A DNA stretch of 64,000 nucleotides from contig JAMXHR010000009.1 in NCBI GenBank assembly GCA_023955635.1, forward strand, positions 1 to 64,000. Direction: 5' to 3'. This document shows, in pieces, positions 5,201-35,506 of the stretch. A program made the translations under genes and the position numbers. The notes below the pieces were generated by a model. It was not told the DNA's origin. It worked only from the letters and a program-made list of their open reading frames with translations, and made no database searches. The stretch is from Methanosarcina sp. ERenArc_MAG2. GTDB lineage: Archaea; Halobacteriota; Methanosarcinia; Methanosarcinales; Methanosarcinaceae. Positions within the stretch are counted from its first letter, which is position 1. Each line of letters opens with the position of its first letter.

Positions 5201-6750
5201 ATGTACGAACTGAAAGAAGGGATCGATTTTTACATCGAATCCATGCAGAATAAAAAAGTAACTATTTTTGACACAACACTACGTGATGGAGAACAAACCC
5301 CTGGGGTATCCCTGACTTCTAATCAGAAGCTGGAAATTGCCCATCAACTTGACAAACTTGGGGTAGACATAATAGAAGCTGGATTTCCTATCTCGTCAGA
5401 AGGAGATAAAGAATCCGTAAAATCGATTTCTAATGCCGGACTGGATACCGAAGTCTGCGGACTCGCCCGTGTGTTGAAAAAAGATATCGATGCCTGTTTT
5501 GATAGCGACGTTGGCCTAGTGCATACTTTTGTTCCGACCTCAGATGTACAGAGGATATACACCATTAAAAAAGCCGGGAAGAAGTCATTCAACTGGCTGT
5601 GGAAGCTGTCCAGTACATCAAAGACCATGGACGGAAGTGTATGTTTTCTGCAATGGACGCTACAAGGACTGATCCTGAATACCTCATACAGGTTTTCAAA
5701 GCAGTCCAGGAAGCAGGATGTGATATCATTAACGTGCCAGATACTGTTGGCGTTATGGTGCCGTCCGCAATGTACAGACAGATAAAGGACATTGCAGCTG
5801 AAATAACAATTCCCATCGATGTGCATTGCCATAATGATTTCGGACTTGCGGTAGCAAACAGTCTCATGGCAGTCGAAGCAGGCGCTTCCCAGGTACAGGT
5901 CACGATAAATGGCATAGGCGAGAGGGCAGGAAATGCCGACCTTGCCCAAACGGTCATGAGCCTCAAGGCAATGTATGAGGCAAAAACAAACATTCGGACA
6001 GAATACCTTGTTGAAACCTCTAAAATGATTGAAAACTATACTGGAATCAGACTTCCTCCAAACACCCCTGTGGTCGGCCAGAATGCTTTTTCCCACGAGT
6101 CGGGAATCCACAGCCAGGGAGTACTTGAAAAATCCGATACCTTCGAACCCGGAATAATGACTCCGGAAATGGTAGGACACAGACGACGTATTGTCCTCGG
6201 CAAACATACCGGCAAACATGCAGTCAAGCAGTCCCTCGAATCTGCCGGGATAATAACAAATGACAAGCAGCTCGATGAGATTGTATCCAGAATCAAAGAG
6301 ATTGCAAACAAGGGCAAACAGATCACAGATGCTGACCTTTATGCGGTTGCTTCGGCCGTGCTTGGAAAAGCAAGTTCCGAAGAAGAACTGATTAAACTTA
6401 AAGAGGTATCTGTAATGACCGGCAACATCCTGACGCCCACGGCAGTGGTCAAGGCAGACATTCAAGGCAAAGAAGTCATTGCAGCAAGGACCGGAGTTGG
6501 CCCTGTAGATGCCGCCCTCAATGCTGTAAGAGATATACTGGGAGAAAGTAACCACTTTAAACTCCAGGATTTTAGAATCGATGCCATTACCGGAGGAGCA
6601 GATGCCCTTGCAGATGTGTACATAGGTCTTGAAAACGAACAGGGCAGAATTGTAACTGCCAGGTCTGCAAACACGGACATAGTTATGGCCTCCGTAGAAG
6701 CCCTTGTAAACGCCATGAACCTGCTGTATAAAAAGGAAGAAAAGATCTGA
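5201..6750 (+). CDS. leuA: 2-isopropylmalate synthase family (LeuA), one frameshift
   Basis: This is a DRE-TIM metallolyase that condenses acetyl-CoA with a 2-oxo acid, most likely 2-oxoisovalerate in leucine synthesis. Visible motifs are DTTLRDGEQTPG near the N-terminus and the metal-binding VHCHNDFG. A complete C-terminal LeuA dimer domain supports LeuA or CimA over a plain homocitrate synthase, which lacks it. The frame breaks in an A6 run at 5567-5572. One more A restores the ordinary sequence TIKKSREEVIQLAVEAV and joins both halves into about 517 residues. The start at 5201 lacks a strong ribosome-binding site, and an internal Met at 5243 is an alternative. Citramalate synthase (CimA) and homocitrate synthase are close relatives, so substrate is inferred. 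Confidence 0.85.
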
Positions 6751-6788
6751 ACTGACAGAAACGGCTAAAAGAGCTGGGAAAACTTCTA

Positions 6789-6848
6789 GTTCAAAATATG
6801 GTTCAAAGTATGGTTTAAAATATAGTTCAAAGTATAGTTCAAAGATAA
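6789..6848. repeat. 12-bp tandem repeat, 5 units
   Basis: Five exact-length units of GTTCAAARTATR fill the gap between leuA and the TatD gene. They lie after the leuA stop. They make a periodic open frame on the opposite strand that looks like a protein but is an artefact of the repeat. Confidence 0.8.
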
Positions 6849-6954
6849 TTTCAGACAAAAAATCGGATAAGGACTAATACCTATTCGTTTTTCAGGTTTG
6901 TATTCCACAAATTATGTATAAAAAGTAAAATAAAATGAGGTGGAATACAAATCC

Positions 6955-7713
6955 ATGCCTTATCCAATTATTGATTCTCATTGTCACCTTGATTTTCCAA
7001 AATTCAACCGCGATCGGGAAGAGACTATTTTCCGAGCCAGGGAAACAGGAGTTGTCGGAATGATCAATTCCGGAATTTCGCTGAAGGGTAACCGCATAAG
7101 TCTTGAACTTGCGGAAAAGCATGAAGATATTCATGTCACACTTGGCCTGAGTCCTGATATCGGTAGAGAAGGTAACGATAAAGAAATAAATGCTATCCTT
7201 TCCCAGATTGAAGCCAATGCAGGAAAAGCAGTTGGGATTGGGGAAGCCGGCCTTGATTTTCAGGACTGCAAAACAAAAGAGGAAAGGGAGAAGCAGACAG
7301 CGTCATTCAAAAAAATAATAGAGCTTGCAAAAGACCTGGACAAACCTCTTGTGGTGCATGCCCGAATGGCTGAAGCTGAAGTCCTGAAACTTGTCAGGGA
7401 TATAGATACAGTTATCTATCATTGTTACAGCGGCTCTGTTGAGACCATGAGGGAAATCGTAGATATGGGGTACTACATTTCCCTGGCAACCCTTGTCTGT
7501 TTTTCCGAGCATCACCGGGTTCTCGCAGCAGAGGTGCCACTTGAAAACCTTCTTCTGGAAACTGACAGTCCCTTCCTTTCTTCCCGCAAAGGCAGAAATG
7601 AGCCTGCCTTTATAGTGGATTCGATCCCTGTAGTAGCTCAACTTAAAGATATGGAACCTTCGGAAATTGCTAAATCCGCCACAGCAAATGCAAGCAGGGC
7701 TTTCAATATATAA
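6955..7713 (+). CDS. TatD-family metal-dependent hydrolase
   Basis: This is a TIM-barrel metal hydrolase of the TatD/amidohydrolase superfamily. TatD-type enzymes cleave DNA or phosphodiester bonds, but the archaeal members are little characterised. Family motifs appear in order: DSHCHLDF at the N-terminus (metal pair), GEAGLDF, VVHAR, YHCYSG and ETDSPFLS at the C-terminal metal site. Its length of 252 aa is normal. I chose the ATG at 6955 because GAGGTGG ends 12 nt before it; a GTG at 6940 would overlap that site. The gene follows leuA after a repeat-containing gap. Confidence 0.85.
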   Translation: MPYPIIDSHCHLDFPKFNRDREETIFRARETGVVGMINSGISLKGNRISLELAEKHEDIHVTLGLSPDIGREGNDKEINAILSQIEANAGKAVGIGEAGLDFQDCKTKEEREKQTASFKKIIELAKDLDKPLVVHARMAEAEVLKLVRDIDTVIYHCYSGSVETMREIVDMGYYISLATLVCFSEHHRVLAAEVPLENLLLETDSPFLSSRKGRNEPAFIVDSIPVVAQLKDMEPSEIAKSATANASRAFNI

Positions 7714-11607: not shown

Positions 11608-12237
11608 TCACAAAGTTTGCACATGTATTATTCTAACGGTCTTTTTATTCGGTAGTACATTTACAGTTTCATATTCAAGCCCCAAGACGCCAAAATCTTT
11701 GTCAAACCACTTTGGAACATGACTGCAAATGACATCCAGCCTATTGAACTCTCCATTTTTCAGATAGGGAATCAGAATTTTCTTTGAAGTCAACTGCGGA
11801 TTCTTTGAAAGGATTTCTTCCATATTAAGACAAAAATCACCTTTATACATACCAGGTTCCAAAAATTGCACGATATCGAATTTGCAGGGTTTCTCCTGCT
11901 GCTCCTCAATTACCTCAAGCATTTCTTTTTTGACTGAATCGAGAACATCCAAAGCGCAATTTTTTACAAGGAATATTTCAAAGCCCGCTGCTTCAAAAAT
12001 ACCGAACGCTATCCCTGGGATTTCACTGGCAACCACTATTTTCACATCATCAAGCTGCTTTATGGTATCTGCCACAGCCATGCGTACCGCAGCAATACCC
12101 TTTGCGTTGCAAACTTTATTTTCAAAACGGTTCATGACTTTCCATTCCCCGCCGTCGTTCTCATATGTTGCAACGAATCCAGGTTCAAATATTGAACTCG
12201 TTTTTTGGTTACTGCTTTCTACAACTGCAATTTTCAA
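11608..12237 (-). CDS. anfO: AnfO-like Fe-only nitrogenase accessory protein
   Basis: The 209-aa protein begins KIAVVESSNQKTSSIFEPGF and continues ATYENDGGEWKVMNRF. This resembles the opening of AnfO, a protein found only with alternative nitrogenases and thought to help them function; its exact role is unknown. The central part also resembles dinitrogenase iron-molybdenum cofactor-binding folds (VASEIPGIAFGIFEAAGF). I prefer the TTG start at 12237, preceded by AAAGGAGGA, over the ATG at 12267, because relatives start MKIA. It is co-oriented with anfK but separated from it by 395 bp holding a hairpin and an IS end, so it may have its own promoter. Confidence 0.7.
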   Translation of the reverse strand: MKIAVVESSNQKTSSIFEPGFVATYENDGGEWKVMNRFENKVCNAKGIAAVRMAVADTIKQLDDVKIVVASEIPGIAFGIFEAAGFEIFLVKNCALDVLDSVKKEMLEVIEEQQEKPCKFDIVQFLEPGMYKGDFCLNMEEILSKNPQLTSKKILIPYLKNGEFNRLDVICSHVPKWFDKDFGVLGLEYETVNVLPNKKTVRIIHVQTL

Positions 12238-12380
12238 GACACATCCTCCTTTCTTGTTGCAATTCATGATGATTTCAGGCTGAGATAAAAATAGTTGCTC
12301 GCCGTCAGAACTATCTGCTCGATTTACGTAAGCCCTACGGGATTAACTCCGTAATCATAGGAATATATCCATGTAACGAC

Positions 12381-12632: not shown

Positions 12633-14020
<1,388 letters not shown>

Positions 14021-14035
14021 AATATTTCCCCTTTC

Positions 14036-14386
14036 TTAATAGAGCGGGTTAGTAAGTTCTTTATTCAGTGACCCTTTAATGGTTAAGTAGTCCATACGCT
14101 CTTTGAGTCCTTGCATGAGCAGCTTGATATCTTTTTTGTCCATCGTGGCCAACCATGGGCATGTATTTTTGAAACCCTTAGCCAGAAACACAGCATCCAC
14201 CCAATAGCATCTGTCCGCCGGAGTTTCGAGTTCAACGGGTTCCTCACACAATAACTGCATGGTTTTTGTAAGGATTCCCTCGTTCTGCTTCTCTCTGTCC
14301 CAGGCACGGGAGTGAAACTGCCACAGACACCATTTCATAATATAATCCACCAGTTGCTCGATCCTGTCTTTCATAATATCATCCAT
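14036..14386 (-). CDS. anfG: Fe-only nitrogenase delta subunit AnfG
   Basis: The delta subunit occurs only in V- and Fe-only nitrogenases and lies between the D and K genes. The segments [25 protein letters not shown] and [14 protein letters not shown] match the AnfG pattern of Azotobacter rather than VnfG, which has CLWQFFSRTWDRE and a different middle. This is the best evidence that the system is the Fe-only enzyme. I chose the ATG at 14386 because GGAGGTG is well placed before it; a longer start at 14404 would overlap the anfD stop. The gene is 15 bp from anfK, so the operon is tight. Confidence 0.92.
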
Positions 14387-14403
14387 GAATGACATCACCT
14401 CCA

Positions 14404-16389
<1,986 letters not shown>

Positions 16390-16401
16390 AGTTGCATCTC
16401 C

Positions 16402-16719
16402 TTAAAGACCTGGAACTCCAGTACGTATTGTGTACGCATCGTCAACGGGAGTTACAAAAATTTTACCGTCTCCGTAATTACCAGTGTATGCTTTGCATTT
16501 GATAAGTTTAACAACTTCTTCAACAGACTTATCTTCTACAACTAGCATAATCATGGTTTTAGGAAGTTCATCATAGTGCGTCGTTCCTACCGTGATCCCA
16601 TTCTGTTTTCCACGACCAAATACATTTATTTTTGTTAGTGAGATAAAACCAGCCTCTTCGAGTCCTTCAGTAACTTCATCAGTGGTTTCAGGGCGTAATA
16701 TAGCTCTGATCATTTTCAT
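16402..16719 (-). CDS. nifI1: PII-family nitrogen regulator NifI1
   Basis: The partner of NifI2 in post-translational control of nitrogenase. The 105-aa PII protein begins MKMIRAILRPETTDEV, has VFGRGKQNGITVG before the T-loop, and ends YGDGKIFVTPVDDAYTIRTG. I chose the ATG at 16719 because GGAGG stands 6 nt before it; the upstream ATG at 16746 lacks that. The gap to nifI2 is 12 bp. Confidence 0.92.
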   Translation of the reverse strand: MKMIRAILRPETTDEVTEGLEEAGFISLTKINVFGRGKQNGITVGTTHYDELPKTMIMLVVEDKSVEEVVKLIKCKAYTGNYGDGKIFVTPVDDAYTIRTGVPGL

Positions 16720-16855
16720 ATGAAACCTCCTTTTCCCGCCGAACAAAATTTATAATACGAAACTTCATCCGGCGGCAAATGAAATTTTGTGTGTTTACAA
16801 TGAAGTTTTACGCTGCGTGTGGAGAATGAAATTGCATGAATGGCTTTTTGCATGA

Positions 16856-17704
<849 letters not shown>

Positions 17705-17710
17705 TTATAG

Positions 17711-17771
17711 AGCTCATCCCAAAACTCACAATTTGCCTCTTTGGACATTATATTTTGAACAATCAATCGAG
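17711..17771. mobile_element. MITE-like end fragment in the anfH leader
   Basis: The sequence starts GAGCTCATCCCAAAACT and carries AATCAATCGAG 50 bp later. Both match the left half of the inverted-repeat element at 26913-27043 in sequence and spacing. It ends 22 bp before the anfH ATG, so the operon leader is partly mobile-element DNA. Confidence 0.55.
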
Positions 17772-17847
17772 TTACTCAATAGAATATTGAGATTTTTCCT
17801 GTGTTGCTGACTTCTTTTTTTGCGCCCCCCATATTAATTTATTAAGT

Positions 17848-17869
17848 GATATGTTTATACAAACATAAC
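17848..17869. promoter_or_regulatory. anf palindrome 1, overlapping promoter
   Basis: GATATGTTT, four bases, AAACATAAC: one mismatch from a perfect palindrome. On the minus strand it contains TGTATAAACATA, a plausible TATA element for anfH, so a bound repressor would block the promoter. Confidence 0.65.
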
Positions 17870-18069
17870 TAAGCTTTATAATGGAGGAATACAGTTACCA
17901 TTTTCCTATTTATTTGTATAAATAGTTTTCTATAGGTCGAGTTACCAACTATTAGAAGAAATAACGCATAATTCACGAGATAATTAGAAAACTATCCTTG
18001 AAAAAAGATGTCAATAGACATTATTGTTCATTTTAGCGATGAGCGATTATAAATTTAAAATAGAATTTT

Positions 18070-18091
18070 GTTATGTTGTAGAGAAGATAAC
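18070..18091. promoter_or_regulatory. anf palindrome 2, degenerate
   Basis: GTTATGTTG, four bases, GAAGATAAC. The outer half-site GTTAT/ATAAC and the 22-bp spacing match the other copies; the inner bases differ. Confidence 0.45.
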
Positions 18092-18159
18092 ACTTCGTTT
18101 TGCGAAAAAAGGATTACTGCTTGGACAAGTCACATAGGAACAATAGGAGATATCACACC

Positions 18160-18181
18160 GTTATGTTTAAATAAACATAAC
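18160..18181. promoter_or_regulatory. anf palindrome 3, perfect arms
   Basis: GTTATGTTT, AAAT, AAACATAAC: both 9-bp arms are perfectly complementary. Confidence 0.65.
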
Positions 18182-18324
18182 ACTCATCCCATCAAATAAC
18201 GGACGTATGGCGATTTTAACACAAAAGAAAAAGAAATAAATCATACAGTTATTCTTTGATAAAGATCATATTTTTCCTCTCGAAATAGAACATTTTACCT
18301 CCAGAGAATAGAGCAGATTTCACT

Positions 18325-18346
18325 GTTATGTTTTAAGAAACATAAC
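18325..18346. promoter_or_regulatory. anf palindrome 4, perfect arms
   Basis: GTTATGTTT, TAAG, AAACATAAC: the arms are identical to palindrome 3, and only the spacer differs. This argues for selection on the arms. Confidence 0.65.
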
Positions 18347-18506
18347 GCTTAAACCGTAAACATGGAGGTAGATTGCGTTTTTGGTAAAAACGACTGAGAG
18401 AACACATTCATGAAAAAAATAGTTACAGTAGATCTTGAATTGAGTGTCAATTCAAAAAACACCTCAGCCCGGAAATGAGACGTTTTTCCCCTGAAGCTGT
18501 GTGGGA

Positions 18507-19128
18507 ATCAAAGTTGCGCTGGCGCACCCCGCTGCAAGCAACGGGGTATGTTCGCGCCACCGCTCTGGTTGTAATGGTTATTCAAAATCAAGAATTTTCA
18601 TTTGCTGATATGCTTCTTTTTCCTCCTGGTTTCCCTGATTTTCAACATAGTTTTTGATAACATCGGAAGTTATTCCATCTCCTACAGTTCCAATGTAGCC
18701 TCCATCACTCCACAGTTCACCATCCCAAAGGTGTTTTTTGATTTCAGGGTATTGTTTAAAGATTTGTCTTGCTGTAATACATTTTATAATTTGCATGATT
18801 TTTGAAGGAGAATACTTTGGTTCAGCTCCAACAAAAAGATGTACATGATCGCCATCACTACCAATTGCATCAAACTCAAAACAGTATCTTTCACTAATTT
18901 CAAAGCATACATTTTTCAAAAAGTTTACGAGTTCTGTCTTTAAAAGAAGCTTTTTACGGTACTTCACACAAAAAACCATGTGATATCTTATTTTATATAC
19001 ACAATGGTTTGCATGTCTGAGTTCCATTTACAGTACAAATGTAGCTAAAAATATAAATTGATTATTTAACAACGGTTATCGGGGAAGTTTTCCATCCCCG
19101 CAGCAAGCTGCGGGGTATTCGACTGAAT
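18507..19128 (-). mobile_element. IS200/IS605-family insertion sequence (tnpA only)
   Basis: The element spans two different subterminal hairpins. The left end (18507-18562) has CCCCGCTGCAAGCAACGGGG. The right end (about 19074-19128) has GGGGAAGTTTTCCATCCCC and CCGCAGCAAGCTGCGG. Such imperfect palindromes rather than inverted repeats are the mark of Y1 single-strand transposons. No tnpB is present. A copy of both ends without the gene lies at 57779-57988, which helps define the borders. Confidence 0.85.
18578..19027 (-). CDS. tnpA: IS200/IS605 Y1 (HUH) transposase TnpA
   Basis: The 149-aa protein carries the HUH motif HVHLF after DAIGSDGD and the catalytic tyrosine in IKNYVENQG. It would nick and rejoin single-stranded ends folded as hairpins. 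Family members are about 130-150 aa, so it is full length and probably active. It opens HANHCVYKIRYHMVFCVKYR, typical of the family. Confidence 0.9.
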   Translation of the reverse strand: MELRHANHCVYKIRYHMVFCVKYRKKLLLKTELVNFLKNVCFEISERYCFEFDAIGSDGDHVHLFVGAEPKYSPSKIMQIIKCITARQIFKQYPEIKKHLWDGELWSDGGYIGTVGDGITSDVIKNYVENQGNQEEKEAYQQMKILDFE

Positions 19129-34345: not shown

Positions 34346-35506
34346 TTACTCCATCGCCATTGCCACGAGTTCTATAATATCTATGACCTCGATATCTCCG
34401 CCTGCGTCCCTGAGATTTCTCACACAGAGGGGACAGGAGGTAACAATGTAGTCCACACCTTCTGGTACGTCTTTAAGCCTGTTTCTGGCAAGTTCAAGGG
34501 AAATGTCAGGATACCCTATCCTTACCCCGCCTCCGCCGCCGCAGCAGCGGGATTCTTCTTTGATATTTTTCATTTCCTTGAGGGTGCAGATTGCCTGGAT
34601 GACTTTCCTCGGAGCGTCATAAATCTTATTGTGCCTGCCCAGATGGCAGGGATCATGGTAGGTGACTGTAAGGTCAAGTTTCTTCAGCTTGAGTTCATCC
34701 AGATGTTCGGCAAGGAACTCGGGTAGGCTGATGACACGAAGCTCCCCGGGATAATTGTTTTTGAGAGTTGTATAACAACCGGCACAGCTTGTGATAATTG
34801 TGTGAGCTCCTACCTGTATTATCTGCTCAAGGTTGTGTTCCATGATCTTTTCTGCGTCTTCCCTGAATCCGGTACGCAGAAGAGGAGAAGCACAGCACTG
34901 TTCATCAGGCAAGAGAGTTACTCCATAGCGCTGCAGGATTTTAAATGTCTTTTTTGCAAACTCCGGATAACGGTAAGAATCAAAGCAGCCCACGAAATAG
35001 ACGTAATCCGACTTTTCAGGCAGCTGTGAGCGTTCTATTTCGGAAAGCCAGTGTTTGCGATTCTGTGTTTCCCCTAAGGAGTTGCCGTATGTCATGACCG
35101 CCGACTTTAATTTTTCCTGGGCTTCAGTTGTAATGCCGCATTTCACAAGCTGGGCACGGGCAGCTTCCACGACTTCTGGCGGGTTTGCTCCGGCAGGACA
35201 TTTAGCAGCGCAGATCCCGCAGGTTGTACACGAAGCCAAGCTTGGAAGTACATCTTCGGAAGGGAGAGTGCCCTCGAGAAGGCTTTTTATGATGAGCATT
35301 CTTCCGCGCGTGTTAGCAGATTCCCAGCCCACTACGTCAAAGACAGGACAGACAGAGCGGCAGGTTCCGCACTGCACGCATTTATAAACCGATCTGCGGT
35401 CAACTTCAAAGAGCTTCTCTTTTCCTTTTTCCACTCTTATCTCAATTTTATCCAGCTCTTTTGCCTGCTCAGTTTCCTTTTTTCCTTCGTTTTTCATGGT
35501 TTTCAC
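34346..35506 (-). CDS. Iron-sulfur subunit of glycolate/lactate-type dehydrogenase (GlcF-like)
   Basis: 386 aa. Two [4Fe-4S] ferredoxin motifs, CVQCGTCRSVCP and CTTCGICAAKCP, are followed by two CCG (cysteine-rich) domains with EQCCASPLLRTG and SRCCGGGGGVRIG, as in GlcF, LldE and HdrB. It would pass electrons from the flavoprotein encoded upstream, whose stop its ATG overlaps by 4 bp (ATGA). In methanogens the electron acceptor could be a membrane or heterodisulfide-linked carrier; this is inferred. The substrate could be lactate, glycolate or another 2-hydroxy acid. Confidence 0.85.
   Translation of the reverse strand: MKTMKNEGKKETEQAKELDKIEIRVEKGKEKLFEVDRRSVYKCVQCGTCRSVCPVFDVVGWESANTRGRMLIIKSLLEGTLPSEDVLPSLASCTTCGICAAKCPAGANPPEVVEAARAQLVKCGITTEAQEKLKSAVMTYGNSLGETQNRKHWLSEIERSQLPEKSDYVYFVGCFDSYRYPEFAKKTFKILQRYGVTLLPDEQCCASPLLRTGFREDAEKIMEHNLEQIIQVGAHTIITSCAGCYTTLKNNYPGELRVISLPEFLAEHLDELKLKKLDLTVTYHDPCHLGRHNKIYDAPRKVIQAICTLKEMKNIKEESRCCGGGGGVRIGYPDISLELARNRLKDVPEGVDYIVTSCPLCVRNLRDAGGDIEVIDIIELVAMAME

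Follow-up and report, generated by a model that had tools for sequence, protein, structure and literature searches.

The window analysed here, a 64,000-nucleotide stretch of contig JAMXHR010000009.1 from Methanosarcina sp. ERenArc_MAG2, carries an iron-only nitrogenase operon, anfH-nifI1-nifI2-anfDGK, on the minus strand. Its first gene, anfH (16856–17689), encodes the nitrogenase iron protein and scores 457.5 bits against TIGR01287, over the cut-off. This is followed by two genes for PII regulators, one of the nifI1 type (16402–16746), which shares 73–87% identity with the corresponding anf-operon proteins of relatives, and one of the nifI2 type (16009–16389). The structural genes are anfD (14404–15982), anfG (14036–14404) and anfK (12633–14020); anfO (11608–12267; PF09582, 195 bits) follows them on the same strand and is also counted as part of the anf operon. 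As assembled, anfD falls into three frames, as it lacks single bases near 14995 and 15465 that are present in contig JAUPKS010000251.1 (L191; 4455 bases), where AnfD is intact (526 residues); anfK contains one frameshift at ~13175. Because nifD and modC are frameshifted as well in the same assembly, sequencing error is a likely origin of these interruptions.

Upstream of the operon, an IS200-type insertion (18513–19124; transposase at 18578–19027, minus strand) begins just beyond the most distal of the palindromes described below. Contig L191 is 99.07% identical to window positions 14230–18512 and resumes at 19125, and therefore presents the empty site without the insertion; the insertion is recent. 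L191 was deposited in a Planctomycetota metagenome assembly, yet is 99% identical to a Methanosarcina anf locus, and is evidently mis-binned.

Four 22-base palindromes had been noticed upstream of anfH in a first-pass annotation of this DNA, and the statistics bear this out. When the 18-base form GTTATGTTTNNNNAAACATAAC, which consists of the arms GTTATGTTT-N4-AAACATAAC, is scored at up to three mismatches, the 64-kb window contains exactly four matches, all within 17848–18346. Dinucleotide shuffles of the window give a mean of 0.05 matches and a maximum of 1. Two of the four are perfect copies with identical arms and different spacers, as had been described: a candidate operator at 18160–18181 with the spacer AAAT, and the most distal candidate at 18325–18346 with the spacer TAAG. 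These are the only perfect copies of GTTATGTTTNNNNAAACATAAC in the whole 4.53-Mb genome. The proximal candidate at 17848–17869 reads GATATGTTT-ATAC-AAACATAAC and has one mismatch. The fourth, a weaker candidate at 18070–18091, reads GTTATGTT-N6-AAGATAAC; it differs from the 18-base form at three positions, and had been called degenerate, but by the refined 16-base consensus, GTTATGTT-N6-AACATAAC, it has just one mismatch. The refined consensus identifies eight sites in the source genome.

Alignment of anf and vnf promoters indicates which of these positions are maintained. A palindrome aligned with 17848–17869 is found in all seven promoters compared, and the two outer upstream positions, 18160 and 18325, are likewise kept in 7/7. 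At 18160–18181 there are aligned palindromes in all relatives that have a divergent gene arrangement, and 18325–18346 aligns with degenerate palindromes in relatives. The position of the weak 18070 site is occupied by a strong site, GTTATGTTTATATAAACATATC, in the M. acetivorans-like genome G086.

Phylogenetic footprinting, using nine promoters at first and then seven, also defines the architecture of the anf promoter itself. A conserved TATA-like box lies at 17917–17924 on the minus strand (TATTTATA in the window, TATATATA in relatives). In the direction of transcription it is followed by a second conserved element and then by the proximal palindrome, which begins ~48–50 bp downstream of the box and is centred ~62 bp downstream of it. 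The one-mismatch palindrome had been thought to overlap the anfH TATA region; footprinting rejects this overlap, as the conserved box is ~48 bp away. A TATA-like string inside the proximal palindrome probably misled the earlier reader. Given this layout, the proximal palindrome would sit downstream of the inferred anfH start site.

The second conserved element, GGAAAATGGTAACTGTATTCC, spans 21 bp (17886–17906, minus strand) and is a candidate nitrogen-control site. In the anfH and vnfH promoters compared, the proximal operator lies 36 bp downstream of the start of this element; in the window the distance is 37 bp. The nif promoters contain a similar element, ACAACGGTTACCGGCTTCC, equally far from the TATA box and without a ModE-type site. 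Elements of the type GGAAATAGGTTACTGTATTCC also precede transporter genes of the binding-protein kind and one conserved hypothetical gene. In the anfH and vnfH promoters compared, the nif-like element and the ModE-type site are combined at a fixed spacing; of the two, the ModE-type site occurs only in the anf/vnf and transporter promoters.

The source genome encodes two NRD1_2 (NrpR-domain) proteins. Positional equivalence to the nif promoters makes the element at 17886–17906 a candidate NrpR/NrpA site, and suggests a role for it in nitrogen control. An NrpR-type identity was also considered for the four palindromes themselves and is rejected: the palindrome is absent upstream of the four nif operons examined, and the anf upstream region contains no GGTA-N6-TACC or GGAA-N6-TTCC. 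This agrees with the earlier view that the palindromes differ from the NrpR operators of nif genes.

Outside the anf promoter, sites in the source genome fall beside genes of molybdenum and metal uptake or use. A good site is located 180 bp before modA of modABC. Two operons that encode BtuF/Peripla_BP_2-type ABC transporters together with radical-SAM genes are each preceded by a site, at ~44 bp in one case and 316 bp in the other. Another immediately precedes fmdE in the operon for Mo-formylmethanofuran dehydrogenase (fmd), which is divergent from a second modA. There is no site before modE in this genome. Three-mismatch matches elsewhere in the genome, at C9:251008, C10:508757 and C18:15302, are within or beside unrelated genes and are dismissed as chance.

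The same distribution extends through the genus. At no more than one mismatch to the refined consensus, ~94 sites were found in 25 Methanosarcina genomes, carried by 23 of the 25; the reversed-pattern control gave none in the same genomes. At two mismatches, 75 of 101 genomes of the family contain a match. For most of the loci in relatives the nearest gene is fmdE, modA, wtpA, a binding-protein gene, anf or vnf. In several sister-genus genomes (loci L042 and L046, ~1500), a one-mismatch site lies ~60 bp ahead of the gene for an uncharacterised secreted protein, which is a possible unrecognised member of the molybdenum regulon.

When alternative-nitrogenase loci were collected by the anfD family, independently of the motif, each of the six vnfH genes in relatives proved to be preceded by a site with at most two mismatches, as were the anf operons in G084, G086, G088 and G092 and anfH in G086. 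The separate anfH copies in G084 and G092 also have one. The sole exception among the promoters examined is the anf locus of G100, where the anf genes look broken and ModE was not detected. The first-pass annotation had proposed a search of other anf and vnf upstream regions; this search shows that the motif recurs there, and the contrast with the reversed control shows that it is not randomly scattered. As the sites mark the entire Mo/W regulon, an anf-specific operator is rejected, and the motif is a general operator of that regulon.

The arms of two of the sites are perfectly complementary, and transcription probably runs through the proximal site. In principle, the palindromes could therefore act post-transcriptionally, as RNA hairpins in the 5′ leader with a 9-bp stem and a 4-nt loop. 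Across 110 sites, however, dyad pairing shows no excess over that predicted from column composition, and the arm sequence is fixed. Conservation of the arms without covariation points to the DNA site of a dimer, and sites also adjoin modE and modA in bacteria. The hairpin explanation is rejected on this basis and retains only a negligible probability.

The source genome encodes a single ModE (contig C11, ~34353–34949) with an HTH domain and one Mop/TOBE domain. The HTH domain aligns with two structures, 1b9m (E. coli ModE) and 2ijl. The Mop/TOBE domain scores above the curated cut-off, and the HTH scores 57.5–58.7 bits against TIGR00637, below its curated cut-off of 98.5. Ten bacterial ModE genes that lie beside the motif have TIGR00637 as their best family and likewise all fall below this cut-off.

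An exact-match scan of one genome per species (~85,000 species) returned 43 stretches, of which 14 are archaeal, counting the planctomycete-binned L191, and 29 bacterial. All 14 archaeal stretches are beside fmdE, modA, wtpA or anfH. Among the bacterial stretches, 11 of 29 have a ModE HTH gene no more than ~1.2 kb away, and their usual position is between modE and modA; these are from Alphaproteobacteria, Bacteroidota, Thioalkalivibrio, Hydrogenedentota and a Hespellia. Across genomes, the motif and ModE co-occur (Fisher p of 2e-4 in the family and 2e-5 in the phylum), an association confounded by phylogeny. Some ModE-bearing archaea have no recognisable motif.

The E. coli Mo-box is ATCGNTATATA-N6-TATATANCGAT (PMC545781). 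The motif shares with it the palindromic form, the N6 spacing and, in register, a G-n-TAT-n-T half-site preceded by C; this flanking C is present in 62% of half-sites. The two differ at half-site positions 6 and 8, which are G and T in the motif and A and A in E. coli. The sites had previously been described as only loosely like bacterial Mo-boxes. The likeness holds, but "loosely" understates it, as both the N6 spacing and the C-G-n-TAT-n-T half-site are in register. By half-site and spacing, location at molybdenum genes, a genome-encoded ModE, and adjacency to modE in other organisms, the palindromes conform to a Mo-box.

Taken in aggregate, the ModE encoded in the genome, the bacterial modE adjacency and the Mo-box register make ModE, from sequence comparison, by far the best candidate regulator. 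The suggestion of a dimeric, ModE-like metal regulator of the alternative nitrogenase is supported by the presence of the motif upstream of anf and vnf operons and, elsewhere, at modA, wtpA, fmdE and modE. One alternative is that ModE acts at other places and that the regulon is controlled through this operator by a different metal- or anion-responsive regulator, for instance a sensor specific for tungstate or vanadate or an fmd regulator of the Tfx type. The regulon does include tungstate transporters of the wtp/tup type and BtuF-like binding proteins whose substrate is unassigned. This alternative is nonetheless improbable: the palindrome matches the register of the E. coli Mo-box, and its exact form neighbours modE in groups (Alphaproteobacteria, Bacteroidota, Hydrogenedentota and others) that have no other obvious regulator in common.

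The reading that best joins these observations is that the palindromes are predicted ModE operators of the Mo-box form CGTTATGTT-N6-AACATAACG, through which ModE would repress anf when molybdenum or tungsten is plentiful; a nitrogen element would also gate the promoter, and the distal sites would probably derive from a divergent gene. We assign this joint reading a probability of about 0.88. It builds on the computed sites, their conservation, regulon membership, the association with modE and molybdenum genes across domains, and the promoter layout.

The predicted mechanism would proceed as follows. With molybdate or tungstate plentiful, a dimer of the single ModE would bind the palindromes. 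Occupancy of the proximal site, just past the inferred start, would block transcription of anfH-nifI1-nifI2-anfDGK; such a placement suggests that molybdate-ModE acts as a repressor. Upon exhaustion of molybdenum, ModE would leave, and anf could be expressed if the nitrogen element, the candidate NrpR/NrpA site over the start, were permissive. The promoter would thereby behave as an AND-gate, in which nitrogen shortage frees the second element and molybdenum shortage frees the ModE site. In this way, ModE probably keeps the back-up iron-only nitrogenase silent as long as the cell has molybdenum.

Two or three of the sites, the distal ones, probably belonged to a divergent radical-SAM/transporter gene, which is missing from this locus and which relatives have kept. 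In several relatives (L092 at 5838–7631, L095, L097, L099, L101 and L102), a gene fusing radical-SAM and Peripla_BP_2-like domains is divergent from anfH or vnfH and has the operator region in common with it. A family scan of the all-frames read-through of L214 gave no match.

The number of sites could also reflect activation or DNA looping in place of simple repression, with ModE at the distal pair contacting the proximal site or recruiting factors. Four sites are spread across 500 bp, three of the positions are conserved in seven promoters, and at other genes, such as fmd, which encodes a molybdenum enzyme, ModE may well activate. Against this, the distal sites lie near the divergent radical-SAM gene in relatives, a possible owner; some vnf promoters retain one good site only; and the proximal site past the inferred start fits repression. 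We therefore regard activation or looping as unlikely at anf. Cooperative or looped binding, which the four sites had been taken to suggest, is possible but not needed to explain them, because in relatives the distal sites are on the side of a divergent gene missing from this locus.

The fixed spacing raises a further, more tentative possibility. The archaeal vnf and anf promoters may be rigid composite switches, in which a nitrogen element covers the start site and a ModE operator begins exactly 36 bp further downstream, a distance of some three and a half helical turns. The nitrogen regulator and ModE could then interact or jointly exclude RNA polymerase, and GGAAATAGGTTACTGTATTCC, the anf/vnf form of the nitrogen element, could be a distinct variant linked to the molybdenum regulon and used also at metal-transporter promoters. 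We consider this proposal conceivable, though somewhat short of an even chance.

If the joint reading is correct, molybdenum repression of archaeal alternative nitrogenases would be tied to concrete, mutable sites in a genetically tractable genus. In several bacterial phyla, modE-modA regions contain the same ModE-type operator sequence as archaeal nitrogenase promoters, and the agreement extends to exact 18-base matches. The layout also suggests why both nitrogen and molybdenum shortage would be needed for vnf and anf but nitrogen shortage alone for nif, an explanation that can be tested.

Like the bacterial ModE Mo-box, the palindrome is found upstream of modABC and molybdoenzyme operons, and beside modE in bacteria; here, in contrast, several sites precede the promoter of an archaeal iron-only nitrogenase. 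The comparison with NrpR/NrpA control of nif is similarly mixed. The second element at 17886–17906 holds the place of the nif CGGTTACCG element relative to the TATA box, whereas the four palindromes have no counterpart upstream of nif and do not resemble the GGTA/GGAA-N6 operators. A close precedent is ModE control in Methanosarcinales, as stated in PMC9765008 (2022, which cites Studholme & Pau 2003 and a preprint by Chanderban et al. 2021): ModE is said to govern modABC and to influence the nitrogenase types. Clade, regulator and target genes are the same. ModE control of these genes is thus already proposed, and to that statement the present analysis adds a refined consensus, a regulon across ~25 genomes, the link to bacterial modE loci, and the promoter layout. 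Of these, novelty is likeliest for the composite layout and its fixed spacing.
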